The notes under the pieces: model-generated | Databases searched by the model: none | The model's input: the letters and a program-made list of their open reading frames with translations, nothing else | Told to the model about the DNA's origin: nothing | Source of the DNA: a virus | Length of the DNA: 27,198 nt | Strand: one strand, 5' to 3' | IMG/VR virus record: IMGVR_UViG_3300018428_000139 | Coordinates: 1 to 27,198 of that record | In this document: one piece after another, positions 9,348 through 27,198 of the stretch | Position numbering within the stretch: position 1 is the stretch's first letter | Layout: each line of letters opens with the position of its first letter | Made by a program: the position numbers and the translations under genes

Positions 9348-9350
9348 ACC

Positions 9351-9695
9351 TTGGCGTTTGTATTAAAACGGTCTGGCTCTTATTCCTGGCCCGTCAATTT
9401 CGACGTTCCCGTCGATGGCGGCCGGCATGAGCGCCAGACTTTTGACTGCGAATTTAAGCATTTGTCTCAAACTCGCATCCAAGAGATCACCGACGGCATC
9501 GGCAATGATGATTTGAGCGCCTTAGAGGTGGCCTCTGAGGTGCTGGTGGGCTGGTCTGGCGTCACTGACGACGAGGGCAAAGAGGTGCCCTTTAGTCAGA
9601 AGAGCATGGCCGAGCTGCTTGAGGTGCCGATGCTGGCTGGCGCCATCGTGATGGCATATTTCGACAGCCTGAACGGAGCCAAGCGAAAAAACTAG
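9351..9695 (+). CDS. Tail assembly chaperone, gpG-like (unshifted product)
   Basis: The 114-residue protein starts with TTG at 9351, just after the tube stop. It is a short alpha-rich protein: RHERQTFDCEFKHLSQTRIQEITDG, acidic helices, then VGWSGVTDDEGKEVPFSQKSMAELLEVPMLAGAIVMAYFDSL, typical of siphophage tail chaperones of the G kind. These coat the tape measure before the tube polymerises and are absent from finished virions. It ends GAKRKN-stop with the slippery site overlapping its last two codons, so a fraction of ribosomes make the longer G-T form. Confidence 0.82.
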   Translation: MAFVLKRSGSYSWPVNFDVPVDGGRHERQTFDCEFKHLSQTRIQEITDGIGNDDLSALEVASEVLVGWSGVTDDEGKEVPFSQKSMAELLEVPMLAGAIVMAYFDSLNGAKRKN

Positions 9696-10018
9696 CCGAG
9701 GCCGCAGAGCATTGGGCAACCGGCGGCGTCATTGATGAGGTCGCCGACGATGCCGCGGCCATGGGTATTGAGACCCCAGACTTGCCACCCCCACCCGAAG
9801 AAAACTTTCAGGTTTGGGAGAGCAACTGGGACATCGTGCAAATGTTCTTGCGGCTCCAGACGCAATGGCGCACAAGCACGGGTGGATTGACGGGTTTGGA
9901 CTATACAGCGGCCGAATGGCTGTTTAAGCTGTATTCAGTAGAACAGCCGCGCGAGCTACTGGAGGGCCTGCAGGTCATGGAAGCGGCAGCGATGAGCAAG
10001 CTCAACAAAACCAGCTAG
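9351..10018 (+). CDS. Tail assembly chaperone gpG-T-like, -1 frameshift fusion
   Basis: The join is 9351-9692 plus 9692-10018, giving 222 residues. After the slip the protein continues LAEAAEHWATGG, a short acidic linker, and then VWESNWDIVQMFLRLQTQWRTSTGGLTGLDYTAAEWLF. That matches the DUF1799-type T domain (VW..N.....F..LQTQWR....G..GLDY) known as the shifted part of phage tail chaperones. An ATG at 9761 lies in this frame but has no ribosome site, so independent translation is unlikely. In lambda the T part recruits the tube protein to the tape measure and the G:GT ratio is critical for tail assembly. Confidence 0.85.
9686..9692 (+). promoter_or_regulatory. -1 programmed frameshift site A AAA AAC (gpG to gpG-T)
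   Basis: In the gpG frame the codons read cga-aaa-aac-tag, so bases 9686-9692 are a canonical X XXY YYZ heptamer. A -1 slip puts CTA 9692-9694 next and stays open to the TAG ending at 10018. GGCCGC 9700-9705 can pair with GCGGCC 9755-9760, seven bases after the heptamer, a fair distance for a stimulatory stem. Nested CGGCG 9724-9728 can pair with CGCCG 9742-9746. Lambda uses the same arrangement with G GGA AAG. Confidence 0.85.
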
Positions 10019-12333: not shown

Positions 12334-12854
12334 CTGCCTACATCAACCTGAACAATATGAACGTGGCGCTTGAGACAAGCGTCCGCCGTGGTGTTAGGGC
12401 TCAGCGCGTTCAGTTTGGCGATGGTTACTCGCAAATTTTGACTGACGGCATCAATTCTCAAAGTGAGGTTTGGGAGTGTTCAACTGGTCCATTGGCTTTA
12501 GAAGATGCCTACGGTATTGAGTCTTATCTTTACCGCCAAGCCGGTCGGGCATTTCTTTGGACGCCGCCTGATGCGACAAAAACGTTTGACGCACAGTTTG
12601 AAGACGGCGAATTAGACCTGGGCTACAGAAACATTTCGACTCTTGCATTGGATGGCTACACACGGCCTACCAATTACACTGCCAACTTGGCGACTGGCCT
12701 CTTGACCTCAGTTGATATTGACGACTTGACTGACGTGCAAGTTACGCTGACCCTTAACTCAAGAAATTATATTCTCGAACAGGGCTGGCAGTTTAATTAC
12801 ATCAGCCCAGTCATTGCTCGGCTCTCATTTGCGTTAAGGCAGGTGTATGTATGA
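12330..12854 (+). CDS. Minor tail protein M-like, enlarged
   Basis: The N-terminal half carries the gpM signature: RAQRVQFGDGYSQILTDGIN, W at the following strand, and GRAFLWTPPDAT. gpM joins the tip complex at the end of the tape measure. Lambda gpM is about 109 residues; this protein has 174. The extra part lies between FLWTPP and the final strands (SPVIARLSFALRQVYV) and includes NYTANLATGLLTSVDIDDLTDVQVTLT. It overlaps the tape measure stop and the gpL start as ATGA, consistent with co-translation. Confidence 0.85.
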   Translation: MTAYINLNNMNVALETSVRRGVRAQRVQFGDGYSQILTDGINSQSEVWECSTGPLALEDAYGIESYLYRQAGRAFLWTPPDATKTFDAQFEDGELDLGYRNISTLALDGYTRPTNYTANLATGLLTSVDIDDLTDVQVTLTLNSRNYILEQGWQFNYISPVIARLSFALRQVYV

Positions 12855-13558
12855 CACAATCCCCGCCCGTTGCAGAGACATTTCAAACCCAGATGCCAGA
12901 GGCTATTGACCTCTTCACTCTGGACATCTCAACGCTTTTGCCTGCCGGTTCTACTGACCAGTCGATCTATCGCTTTTGCAACTGGTCGCAGACCAATGGT
13001 GACGACATCACCTATGACAGCAACACTTACACTGCCACTCCGTTACAGGCCAATGGGTTTGAGCTAAACACCAGCGGCAAGCTTGAGCGGCCTACTTTGG
13101 TTTTTGCCAACGTTGGTTTGGCAATTACGGCATTGACCAACACCTATAGCGATTTGGTCGGTGCGAGCGTCAGCCGGATTCGCACGCTTACTACCTATCT
13201 GGACGGCACCCCAGGCGCAGACCCCAACGCCTTTTGGGGCCCTGACGAGTGGGTTGTTGAGCAGAAAACAAACGAAACCAAACTCACTGTTACTTTTCAG
13301 CTTGCTGTTCCTTTTGATCTTGAGGGCCGCAGTTTGCCTGGCCGCCGCTTGCTTCGTGAGCAGTGCCAATGGATTTACAAGAGCGATATTGGCTGCCATT
13401 ACGACGGCTCTGATTATTTCGACGCAAACGATGACTCAGTTACAGACGTTGCTGATGATGTTTGCGGAAAGCGTTTGACAAGCTGCCAGCTGCGCTTTGG
13501 CTCTACTTCGCGTCTGCCGTTTGGCGGATTTCCTGGCCTCGTCGATTCTCAAGGCTAA
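12851..13558 (+). CDS. Minor tail protein L-like, probable iron-sulfur tip protein
   Basis: The 235-residue protein follows lambda gpL in size and pattern: DLFTLDIS, YRFCNW, the repeated beta domain with GFELNTSGKLERPTLVFANVG, EWVVEQKTNETKLTVTFQLAVPFDLEG and LPGRRLLREQCQW. Four cysteines at 172, 182, 205 and 212 (EQCQW, IGCHY, DVCGK, SCQLRFG) match in order and spacing those that bind a 4Fe-4S cluster in lambda gpL. A further cysteine, C43, lies outside the motif. It acts in the tail tip below the tube. The end overlaps the gpK-like start as TAATG. Confidence 0.92.
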   Translation: MTQSPPVAETFQTQMPEAIDLFTLDISTLLPAGSTDQSIYRFCNWSQTNGDDITYDSNTYTATPLQANGFELNTSGKLERPTLVFANVGLAITALTNTYSDLVGASVSRIRTLTTYLDGTPGADPNAFWGPDEWVVEQKTNETKLTVTFQLAVPFDLEGRSLPGRRLLREQCQWIYKSDIGCHYDGSDYFDANDDSVTDVADDVCGKRLTSCQLRFGSTSRLPFGGFPGLVDSQG

Positions 13559-25600: not shown

Positions 25601-25882
25601 GTGGATCGCCTAAATGTTGAGCTAATCGGCGGCATCTTGGCTATCGCCGTGCAGGCTGGTATTGCGGTCTGGTGGGCTAGCGGCGTCAGCTCCAAGATGT
25701 TTCACATCGAGCATGAGCTGATGAAGCTGAATATGAACGTGGAGCAGAACACCGAGTTTCGTATTCTCTGGCCGCGTGGCGAAATGGGTGCGTTGCCGGA
25801 CGATGTTAAACAGGATTCCGCAATTCAGGTATTGCAGGCAGAGGTTGAGCGGCTTAGACAGCGGACAGTATGCGCCCGATAA
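25601..25882 (+). CDS. Small membrane protein with one N-terminal TM helix
   Basis: From GTG 25601, 93 residues. Residues about 5-27 (NVELIGGILAIAVQAGIAVWWASGV) form one transmembrane segment, followed by a helix with SKMFHIEHELMKLNMNVEQNTEFRI and a charged C-terminal helix VLQAEVERLRQRT. One TM helix plus a coiled-coil-like tail near a lysozyme fits holin-associated or spanin-like proteins, but no signal peptide, lipobox or Cys ladder is seen. It ends as a TAAATG junction with the next small gene. Lysis role is inferred from place and form. Confidence 0.72.
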   Translation: MDRLNVELIGGILAIAVQAGIAVWWASGVSSKMFHIEHELMKLNMNVEQNTEFRILWPRGEMGALPDDVKQDSAIQVLQAEVERLRQRTVCAR

Positions 25883-26044: not shown

Positions 26045-26245
26045 GTGGATCCGTTTATCACGCCATTGATCACGGCCGCAATAGTTGCTGGCGTTGGTGC
26101 GCTTTGGCGCATTGATAAACGTGCCAGCGTGATGGACACGCGGGTGGCGCTAATCCTTGAGCAAATCACGGCATTGCGAAGTGATCACAAAGAACGTCTC
26201 GACGATCACGAACGCCGGTTGCGTCGCCTTGAACAACAGGGCTAA
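26045..26245 (+). CDS. Second small membrane protein: TM helix plus coiled coil
   Basis: From GTG 26045, 66 residues. Residues 4-22 (FITPLITAAIVAGVGALWR) are a hydrophobic helix; the rest (ASVMDTRVALILEQITALRSDHKERLDDHERRLRRLEQQ) is an amphipathic, charged coiled coil. This one-TM/coiled-coil plan recurs in phage lysis cassettes, as holin partners or regulators. No ribosome site is evident. The reading frame is short but the protein pattern is clear. Confidence 0.72.
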   Translation: MDPFITPLITAAIVAGVGALWRIDKRASVMDTRVALILEQITALRSDHKERLDDHERRLRRLEQQG

Positions 26246-26269
26246 CTTTCAAGCAGTCAACGCCTCCAA

Positions 26270-26407
26270 ATGGACCCCACTACCCTTGCCGCAATCGCAA
26301 TTCTCGCCGCGGCCGGATCTGAAATCATCACCCTGCTGCCGATCCGCGAAAACAGCTGGGTCCAGCTGCTGGTCAAGGTGCTCAACGTTATTGGCAAAAA
26401 AAAGTAG
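26270..26407 (+). CDS. Holin-like 45-residue membrane protein (unshifted product)
   Basis: ATG 26270 gives 45 residues ending at TAG 26405-26407. Residues 5-16 (TLAAIAILAAAG) and 31-42 (VQLLVKVLNVIG) are hydrophobic with SEIITLLPIRENSW between. The end is IGKKK, a basic tail like those of small holins. I recall similar 'SEIIALSPLKENS..QL' mini-proteins from cyanophages, of unproven role. The lysozyme starts 204 bases further on and lacks a signal peptide, so a hole-forming protein is needed; this is the best candidate. The three lysine codons form the slippery site described separately. Confidence 0.68.
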   Translation: MDPTTLAAIAILAAAGSEIITLLPIRENSWVQLLVKVLNVIGKKK

Positions 26408-26640
26408 GCGGCACAACTTGGCTTCTGCGCTTTGGCGATAAGGATTGGCGGCACCACGTCCACAAAGCAGCGCAGGATTGGAAATTCAGGGCCACTCTCA
26501 AACCGCGGCTAGATCGCGAGATTGAGGATTGGCATAAAACCCAACCTGCTGCGGGGCCGCCACCAATCATCAGCAGCGATGAGCTGCGCATATCTGCACC
26601 CTGGGCCACCGATGAGCAACCCGGCACCGATCAGTCTTGA
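26270..26640 (+). CDS. Putative frameshift-extended holin-like protein (123 residues)
   Basis: The join is 26270-26404 plus 26404-26640. The 78 added residues start VGGTTWLLRFGDKDWRHHVH and continue with KAAQDWKFRATLKP, then LDREIEDWHKTQP and a proline-rich end. They look like a soluble, tryptophan-rich, charged domain and show no family I know. This frame is open only from 26323 and has no ATG, GTG or TTG start, so it cannot be translated alone by a normal start. Its end overlaps the lysozyme start by 29 bases, like the other genes here, and it fills a gap that would otherwise be the largest after 612. Alternatives: a sequencing error in the A8 run making one 123-residue gene, or a decayed gene. 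Confidence 0.5.
26398..26404 (+). promoter_or_regulatory. Candidate -1 frameshift site A AAA AAG at the end of the holin-like gene
   Basis: The frame reads ggc-aaa-aaa-aag-tag, so 26398-26404 is A AAA AAG, a very efficient bacterial slippery heptamer, directly before the stop. After a -1 slip, GTA 26404-26406 opens 78 codons to TGA 26638-26640. CTGCGC 26425-26430 can pair with GCGCAG 26470-26475, but it is farther downstream than usual. A run of eight As is also where sequence errors arise, so a read check is needed. Confidence 0.55.
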
Positions 26641-27198
26641 GCAGCTGTTTCGCTACTACAAGGCGCTGCCCCACCAGGCCGCGGCAATTAAAGAACTAGA
26701 GGCCGACCTAGAGGCCAACGGCTACGAAACGGCAATGCGCCGTGATCGCGGCTGGTTCCAGACTTGGAGCCAAGACGGCAAGCAAGCCAATTTGGCTGCA
26801 GCCATCGCGCTGATTAAAGAGTTCGAGGGCGTGCACCTGAGCGCGTACCCGGACCCGCTAAGCGGCGATGAGCCTTGGACCATTGGTTACGGAACCACGC
26901 GCTACAGCGGCGGCGTGCCGGTCAAGCGTGGCGATCGGATCACGATCATCGAAGCCGACATGTTGTTGCGGCTTGAGGTGGACCGCATCGCTGAGAAGCT
27001 GCGGGCCAGCGTGCCGTTCTGGAAAGAGATGGACGACAACCAGAAGTCGGCTCTGGTGTCGTTCGCCTACAACCTCGGTTCTGGTTTCTACGGCTCTGGC
27101 GGATTCGAAACGATCAGCCGCTGCTTGAAAGAAAAAGATTGGGCCGGAGTGCCTGCAGCTCTGGAGCTGTACCGCAACCCTGGCACCAACGTCGAGGC
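26612..27198 (+). CDS. Endolysin, GH24 (T4-type) lysozyme, cut by the window edge
   Basis: From ATG 26612, 195 codons are visible with no stop before the end. Residues 1-58 (ISLEQLFRYYKALPHQAAAI, KELEADLEANGYETAMRRDRGWFQTWSQDGKQ) form an N-terminal extension I recall from lysozymes of cyanobacterial phages, possibly wall-binding. The muramidase follows: IKEFEG (E72), AYPDPL (D81), WTIGYGTT (T90), the E-D-T catalytic set of T4-type lysozymes, then DNQKSALVSFAYNLGSGF and YRNPGTN. No signal peptide or SAR helix is present, so release should depend on a holin. Another frame open at 26868-27128 is a shadow. Confidence 0.92.
   Translation, partial: MSNPAPISLEQLFRYYKALPHQAAAIKELEADLEANGYETAMRRDRGWFQTWSQDGKQANLAAAIALIKEFEGVHLSAYPDPLSGDEPWTIGYGTTRYSGGVPVKRGDRITIIEADMLLRLEVDRIAEKLRASVPFWKEMDDNQKSALVSFAYNLGSGFYGSGGFETISRCLKEKDWAGVPAALELYRNPGTNVE

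Follow-up and report, generated by a model that had tools for sequence, protein, structure and literature searches.

Does a 45-codon open reading frame (ORF) beside a phage lysozyme gene encode one protein or two? The ORF lies near the 3′ end of IMG/VR virus record IMGVR_UViG_3300018428_000139, a fragment that we analyzed from position 1 to 27,198 (hereafter the window, 27,198 bases). The window carries terminase, portal, head, tape measure, and central tail fibre genes and ends with small ORFs followed by the phage lysozyme (PF00959). A sequence-only reading had noticed that the small ORF terminates AAA AAA AAG TAG, which places the slippery heptamer A AAA AAG directly before the stop, and that a −1 slip would lead into an open frame without a start codon of its own. 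The sequence agrees in each respect (Table 1): the joint reads GGC AAA AAA AAG TAG GCG GCA, and the −1 frame has no ATG, GTG, or TTG. The reported 29-base overlap of this frame with the lysozyme and the 204 otherwise unused bases (26408-26611, with no other assigned gene) are also correct if the lysozyme starts at the ATG at 26612. We took this start because the PHROG match begins exactly there, and we note an alternative in-frame TTG upstream, at 26522. The predicted slip product has 45 + 78 = 123 residues, which confirms the arithmetic of the earlier claim, although no protein data are available.

Table 1. Features at the 3′ end of the window (coordinates are those of the window)
Feature	Position	Strand	Remarks
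Upstream GTG-start gene	26045..26245	+	One hydrophobic segment and a charged tail
Zero-frame ORF, N part	26270..26407	+	45-residue small putative membrane protein, PHROG 22542 family
Full open −1 frame, stop to stop	26323..26640	+	Frame translation
Slippery heptamer A AAA AAG	26398..26404	+	−1 register, immediately 5′ of TAG
−1-frame C domain (tail)	26404..26640	+	78 codons and stop, no ATG/GTG/TTG
Zero-frame stop TAG	26405..26407	+	Read from sequence
Endolysin (phage lysozyme, PF00959, E 3.6e-20)	26612..27198	+	Runs off the window

We propose, with a probability of roughly 0.9, that programmed −1 ribosomal frameshifting lets this gene encode two proteins, the slip itself being inferred from sequence without protein data. 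Most ribosomes would read the zero frame and stop at TAG, yielding a 45-residue protein whose membrane location is inferred. A fraction, with two tRNAs paired to A AAA AAG, would slip back by one base, from AAA to AAA in the P site and from AAG to AAA in the A site. These ribosomes would pass TAG and continue to the end of the −1 frame, and the resulting form would have 123 residues, 78 of them in a soluble tail. The slip rate, likewise an inference, would fix the ratio of the two forms, with the short form presumed to be in excess and the long form in the minority. The main heptamer types found in the set of relatives described below (A AAA AAG and C CCA AAG) are given as shift-prone in Escherichia coli in Atkins et al. 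(PMC5009743).

We scanned the plus-strand frames of at least 40 codons (stop to stop) for X XXA AAZ or X XXT TTZ in the last 12 codons, followed by a −1 extension of at least 20 codons. Only three frames qualify, with sites at 26398, 9686, and 13055. The −1 frame of the site at 13055 is the plain ORF at 12851-13558. The site at 9686 (A AAA AAC, within 9348-10018) stands where a 114-residue ORF ends, and its −1 frame extends to 10018, shortly ahead of the tape measure gene; this is the known kind of tail-chaperone (G/GT) frameshift and presumably the first of the two that the sequence-only reading had in mind.

When the 79-residue −1 peptide was used as a query, 38 viral contigs matched, and in all 38 the tail lies in the −1 frame of a similar small ORF with a slippery heptamer at the joint. 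Profile searches with both parts yielded at least 355 sequences, including the window, its own copy (L001), three phage records, and repeated contigs. Among the matches listed (repeats and L001 included), at least 293 loci have both parts, and the tail is in the −1 register in 293/293 and in frame or in +1 in none; at least 62 of the sequences listed have the small ORF without a match to the tail profile. We considered that the joint might be a homopolymer error of sequencing or assembly, the true gene being a single frame. Homopolymers are error-prone, but the identical stretch with its A8 run is present in three other IMG/VR contigs (L002-L004), and the same −1 step recurs in all 293 loci listed and in named isolates, many of them with heptamers that are not homopolymers. 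As judged from these relatives, a sequencing error is refuted for the family, and we see next to no room for it.

Among the matches listed, an in-register heptamer lies 0-3 codons before the zero-frame stop in 179/180 distinct joints. We counted only heptamers with AAA as the second triplet and left out the letter pattern TTTCCC(A/T), which is present in both the tail-bearing and the tail-less groups. A AAA AAG or C CCA AAG is included in 178 of these 179 joints, and one joint has C CCA AAA as its sole counted heptamer. The exception among the 180 is L056 (CCCGAAG), which keeps the tail without a canonical heptamer. CCCAAAG is the only counted heptamer in 60/180 joints, where the A run is just A3, and the run is A6 or A7 at many others. 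These lengths bear on transcriptional slippage, in which RNA polymerase would add an A within the A8 run and create a mixed mRNA pool. A8, which is long enough for polymerase slippage, is present in the window's clade, but it is not conserved, and for this reason, together with the A3 runs and the G GGA AAG of phage S-EIVl, we consider polymerase slippage very improbable. Across the relatives, it is the codon register, and not the run length, that is conserved.

More distant small ORFs gave 80 further loci, which reduce to 59 distinct sequences; these partly repeat earlier contigs and were not added to the 180. A heptamer with a −1 extension of at least 25 codons is present in 54/59, and one more (L397) has a heptamer with a 17-codon remnant. 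The remaining four lack a heptamer: L394, L396, and L416 have no tail by eye, while L451 (GTA AAG AAG) has a tail without a canonical heptamer. L448 carries G GGA AAA and A AAA AAC; these two heptamers, and C CCA AAA, are not named as shift-prone in E. coli in the accessible part of PMC5009743. The heptamer is also kept in three contigs binned in bacterial MAGs.

The tail-less relatives serve as a natural control. Among the matches listed, 37/48 distinct sequences negative for the tail profile have no heptamer. Of the 11 that keep one, six have a short −1 tail or a remnant, all with A AAA AAG: L289, L299, L310, L336, and L345 have a short −1 tail ending LHI[KR]SPW that the profile misses, and L286 has a remnant. 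On noticing these six, we cut the 48 profile-missed sequences to 42. The other five (L089, L112, L223, L232, and L271) have no tail but keep C CCA AAG, with a stop three codons on, which may reflect either recent loss of the tail or another use of the slip.

The spelling of the joint differs between the two groups at synonymous sites. Phe-Pro-Lys ends are spelled TTC CCA in 63/64 sequences with a tail versus 5/34 without (Fisher p 1e-18, uncorrected for kinship). The proline codons of the 34 tail-less ends are CCC (16), CCT (11), CCA (5), and CCG (2), and the background frequency of TTC CCA in frames of at least 150 codons from the same loci is 0.484 x 0.256 = 0.124. Lys-Lys ends with a tail read A AAA AAG in 118/126 cases, versus 4/130 distinct contexts for Lys-Lys pairs in the long ORFs of the relatives; nine different codons stand before AAA AAG at these joints, every one ending in A. 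The other eight of the 126 are Pro-Lys-Lys ends, seven with C CCA AAG and one being L056. We note that our Fisher test on Lys-Lys ends took 118/118 whereas the full count is 118/126, and that the Fisher values are overstated because the sequences are related.

To take kinship into account, we used an endolysin tree of 122 rows, a quick tree with long-branch warnings, in which the five sequences with short tails were coded as tail-bearing and L286 was dropped. The tail changes at least 8 times on this tree and the heptamer at least 6 times; the two differ together in 4-5 independent pairs and in no pair oppositely. With so few pairs, the kinship-aware test is not significant by itself (p 0.06-0.125). 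Among the 100 tail-bearing rows, the heptamer class switches between AAA and CCC at least 16 times with the register kept, although this count could be inflated if the small ORF and the endolysin have recombined. Taken as sequence evidence, the bias at synonymous sites meets the criterion of selection on the heptamer beyond the protein sequence.

We then asked what the −1 frame encodes. The median pN/pS of the tail frame is 0.22 over 299 pairs (equal length, 75-98% identity), compared with 1.29 and 1.73 for the other two frames, which also carry stops over the tail region. By this measure, the tail is under purifying selection and conserved as a protein. The sequence-only reading would have been refuted by homologs without the downstream frame or with random stops inside it; the relatives came out the opposite way, with the two frames joined through the slippery run and the tail evolving as a protein. 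Its proposal of a frameshift is thus supported by the register, the conserved heptamer, selection on the tail, and the tail-less controls.

AlphaFold2 (99 rows) predicted a long helix and a short C-terminal hairpin with modest confidence (pLDDT 73.5, pTM 0.37). The hairpin region includes the conserved end [LM]-x-I-x-[AS]-P-W (ELRISAPW in the window), which holds three of the tail's eleven nearly invariant positions and persists in tails of only 44 residues (L121). A Foldseek search of the model against the PDB returned no match at E 0.001 or better, and searches of Pfam, PHROGs, and NCBIfam with the tail returned none. The tail profile matches S-EIVl (E 3e-15) and S-CBS2 (E 3e-9) and misses the −1 tails of S-B28, 7B11-B, WH11-B, L411, L447, L437, and L446. 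In the missed cases only the slip site and the small ORF are alike, apart from an ending that appears alike by eye in S-B28, 7B11-B, WH11-B, and L437/L446. The fixed heptamer before unrecognized tails (L411, L447, L437, and L446; also L358, L359, and L361) suggests, on sequence grounds, that tails have been swapped or evolve fast.

The tail could instead be a separate small gene, translated by termination-reinitiation from a non-standard or overlapping start after the first ORF. The stop is TGA in 137/180 distinct joints, each of which has an overlapping −1-frame NTG (CTG in 119, TTG in 12, and GTG in 6); S-CBS2 has a GTG overlapping its TAG, and in L056, which lacks a canonical heptamer, a GTG overlaps the stop. 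However, ATG, the best start, occupies the overlap in 0/137; the stop of the window and its near kin is TAG, with no start codon at that spot; and 97/180 joints lack any −1-frame ATG, GTG, or TTG between 60 bases before the stop and 30 after it. Reinitiation would also leave unexplained why TTC CCA AAG and NNA AAA AAG are retained at synonymous sites, and we consider it unlikely. Because polymerase slippage does not fit the A3 runs and reinitiation does not fit the missing starts, tandem −1 ribosomal slippage is by far the best reading.

Shine-Dalgarno (SD) or downstream-structure stimulators often accompany bacterial −1 sites; they are common but not universal. Downstream structure at the window site is not significant (z -0.26, with pseudoknots outside the model). 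For 60-nt windows just 3′ of the heptamer in 45 of 101 representatives, the mean z is about -0.4, compared with -0.7 for windows 30 and 120 bases further on, so the immediate downstream region is no lower. RNAalifold on 18 close relatives gave weak pairs with little covariation. Pairing to the anti-SD in the 101 representatives shows no peak 5-16 bases upstream of the heptamer and is stronger 31-35 and 43-46 bases upstream. As we found no stimulator, the slip rate may be modest. The fragmented genome to which L357 belongs has 33 tRNA places; ARAGORN output for 30 of them included no Lys tRNA.

Named phages follow the same pattern, with the heptamer in 7/8 records that have a tail versus 0/3 that have none. 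S-CBS1, S-CBS3, and KBS-S-2A have A AAA AAG and a homologous tail, the T7-like phages S-B28, 7B11-B, and WH11-B have CCA AAA AAG TAA and a −1 tail, and S-EIVl joins its G GGA AAG to a homologous tail. The small ORF occurs without tail or heptamer in S-CBP1, the fosmid phage MedDCM-OCT-S37-C6, and one Microviridae genome. S-CBS2 (L475 1159-1649) has no heptamer, and its tail is a separate annotated gene whose GTG overlaps the TAG of the small ORF; the tail can therefore be made separately. The separate-gene layout of S-CBS2 and the frameshift layout offer a comparison of function. In S-LBS1, the best isolate match by terminase (46%), other genes precede the lysozyme, and the N part was found neither by searches nor by inspection, so the module is not universal.

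These records also show how the tail has been treated in annotation. The annotated tail genes of S-CBS1 (gp23) and S-CBS3 (gp22) begin inside the domain (at 1504 of L041 and 1531 of L042), and in KBS-S-2A, S-B28, 7B11-B, and WH11-B the tail was omitted, with no gene annotated over its joint-proximal part. Gene models in many cyanophage sequences are corrected accordingly.

Separately, we noticed a relative of the small protein in a microvirus from Ciona gut, MH572431.1 (2849-2986; L363 1201-1338). This unannotated 46-residue ORF (tblastn E 3e-3; profile E 4e-11 in a small set) is flanked by the scaffolding and replication genes and has neither slip site nor tail; we regard it as a candidate lysis gene.

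What might the small protein do? The sequence-only reading had called it holin-like and the pair of forms a possible lysis timer, both of which are inferences. The hydropathy and the endolysin neighborhood fit the holin-like description, but homology to a named holin family was not found. By Kyte-Doolittle analysis only, the best 19-residue hydropathy in the window's protein is 1.99 (residues 5-23), with a weaker stretch at residues 28-42, and the C-terminal end is basic. The protein matches phrog_22542 (E 5e-06), of unknown function, and searches of Pfam, NCBIfam, and PHROGs gave no holin family. In the window, the small ORF is directly upstream of the lysozyme. In S-B28 and WH11-B, the small ORF and tail are followed by the terminase small subunit gene, and in 7B11-B an endonuclease VII gene lies between them and the terminase small subunit; we take this to be the place of the T7 holin gene 17.5. 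The hydrophobic stretches, basic end, gene position, and microvirus relative support a lysis role, with no holin model to add to them. Position and hydropathy suggest that, within the lysis cassette, the short form is the holin or one of its components, lesion formation and lysis being inferred.

Just 5′ of the lysis genes are two more small, unassigned genes that each encode a hydrophobic segment, at 25601-25882 and 26045-26245. The PHROG matches of the latter are weak: the best (E 0.0076) is to a family of unknown function, and one holin family is matched at E 0.077. Because this is the only holin-labelled match, the holin could be 26045-26245 instead, and we regard that gene as a possible partner or as itself a holin candidate.

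Several lineages keep the short form without a tail, so the tail probably acts in regulation or as a helper and does not form the lytic core. We hypothesize that the long form is a regulator, either an antiholin or a tether of the endolysin or of a partner, an inference to which we give somewhat less than even odds. More tentative still is a ribosome-set lysis clock, in which a single gene of about 45 codons would supply several distant cyanophage groups with both a holin and the regulator of that holin, at a ratio fixed by the heptamer. If the frameshift is real, cyanobacterial viruses make two forms of one probable lysis protein, from a site in the lysis cassette and in a family that databases list as unknown. 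Cultured phages allow a test of lysis timing set by translation, and tail-less relatives with synonymously broken sites are ready natural controls.

In tailed phages, tail chaperones and some structural genes are the best-known sites of frameshifting. The sequence-only reading knew of no described case like this one, and our literature search, limited to open-licence papers, agrees: we found neither a published frameshifted holin nor an account of this gene. Frameshifting at such heptamers is known already; undescribed, as far as we found, is its use in a small lysis-cassette membrane protein. The site resembles those of dnaX, IS elements, and lambda G/GT in having X XXY YYZ in register, a −1 overlap, and a shared N terminus. 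Unlike them, it lies in a 45-residue putative lysis-cassette membrane protein, and it differs from known −1 sites in its stop 0-3 codons after the heptamer and in having no detected stimulator.

Among lysis systems, dual-start holins such as lambda S and S21 offer a close parallel: in the cyanophage case, too, a single gene would yield a pair of related membrane proteins, with one member possibly regulating its partner. In this pair, however, a 78-residue tail would set the forms apart at their C termini, and they would arise by frameshifting instead of a second start; two in-frame starts are absent, since the window frame 26246-26407 has one Met. SPP1 gp24.1/24.1* and gp26/26* and lambda S are described as dual-form holins in PMC6316719. 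That paper also presents XhlA-XhlB of PBSX/SPP1 as two small membrane-protein genes beside the endolysin, an arrangement that the cyanophage locus shares. The gene at the small-ORF place in S-CBS1 and S-CBS3 has weak "hemolysin" PHROG matches (E 0.0024 and 0.029), its best match being phrog_26178, of unknown function. In contrast to XhlA-XhlB, the small protein has no match to a named holin family, and we found no XhlB frameshift reported within the accessible text of the sources. A link between frameshifting and phage lysis has a precedent in MS2, where, according to PMC10885494, ribosomes that slip in the coat gene thereby reach the start of the overlapping lysis gene; in the cyanophage gene, unlike in MS2, the fusion itself appears to be the product.
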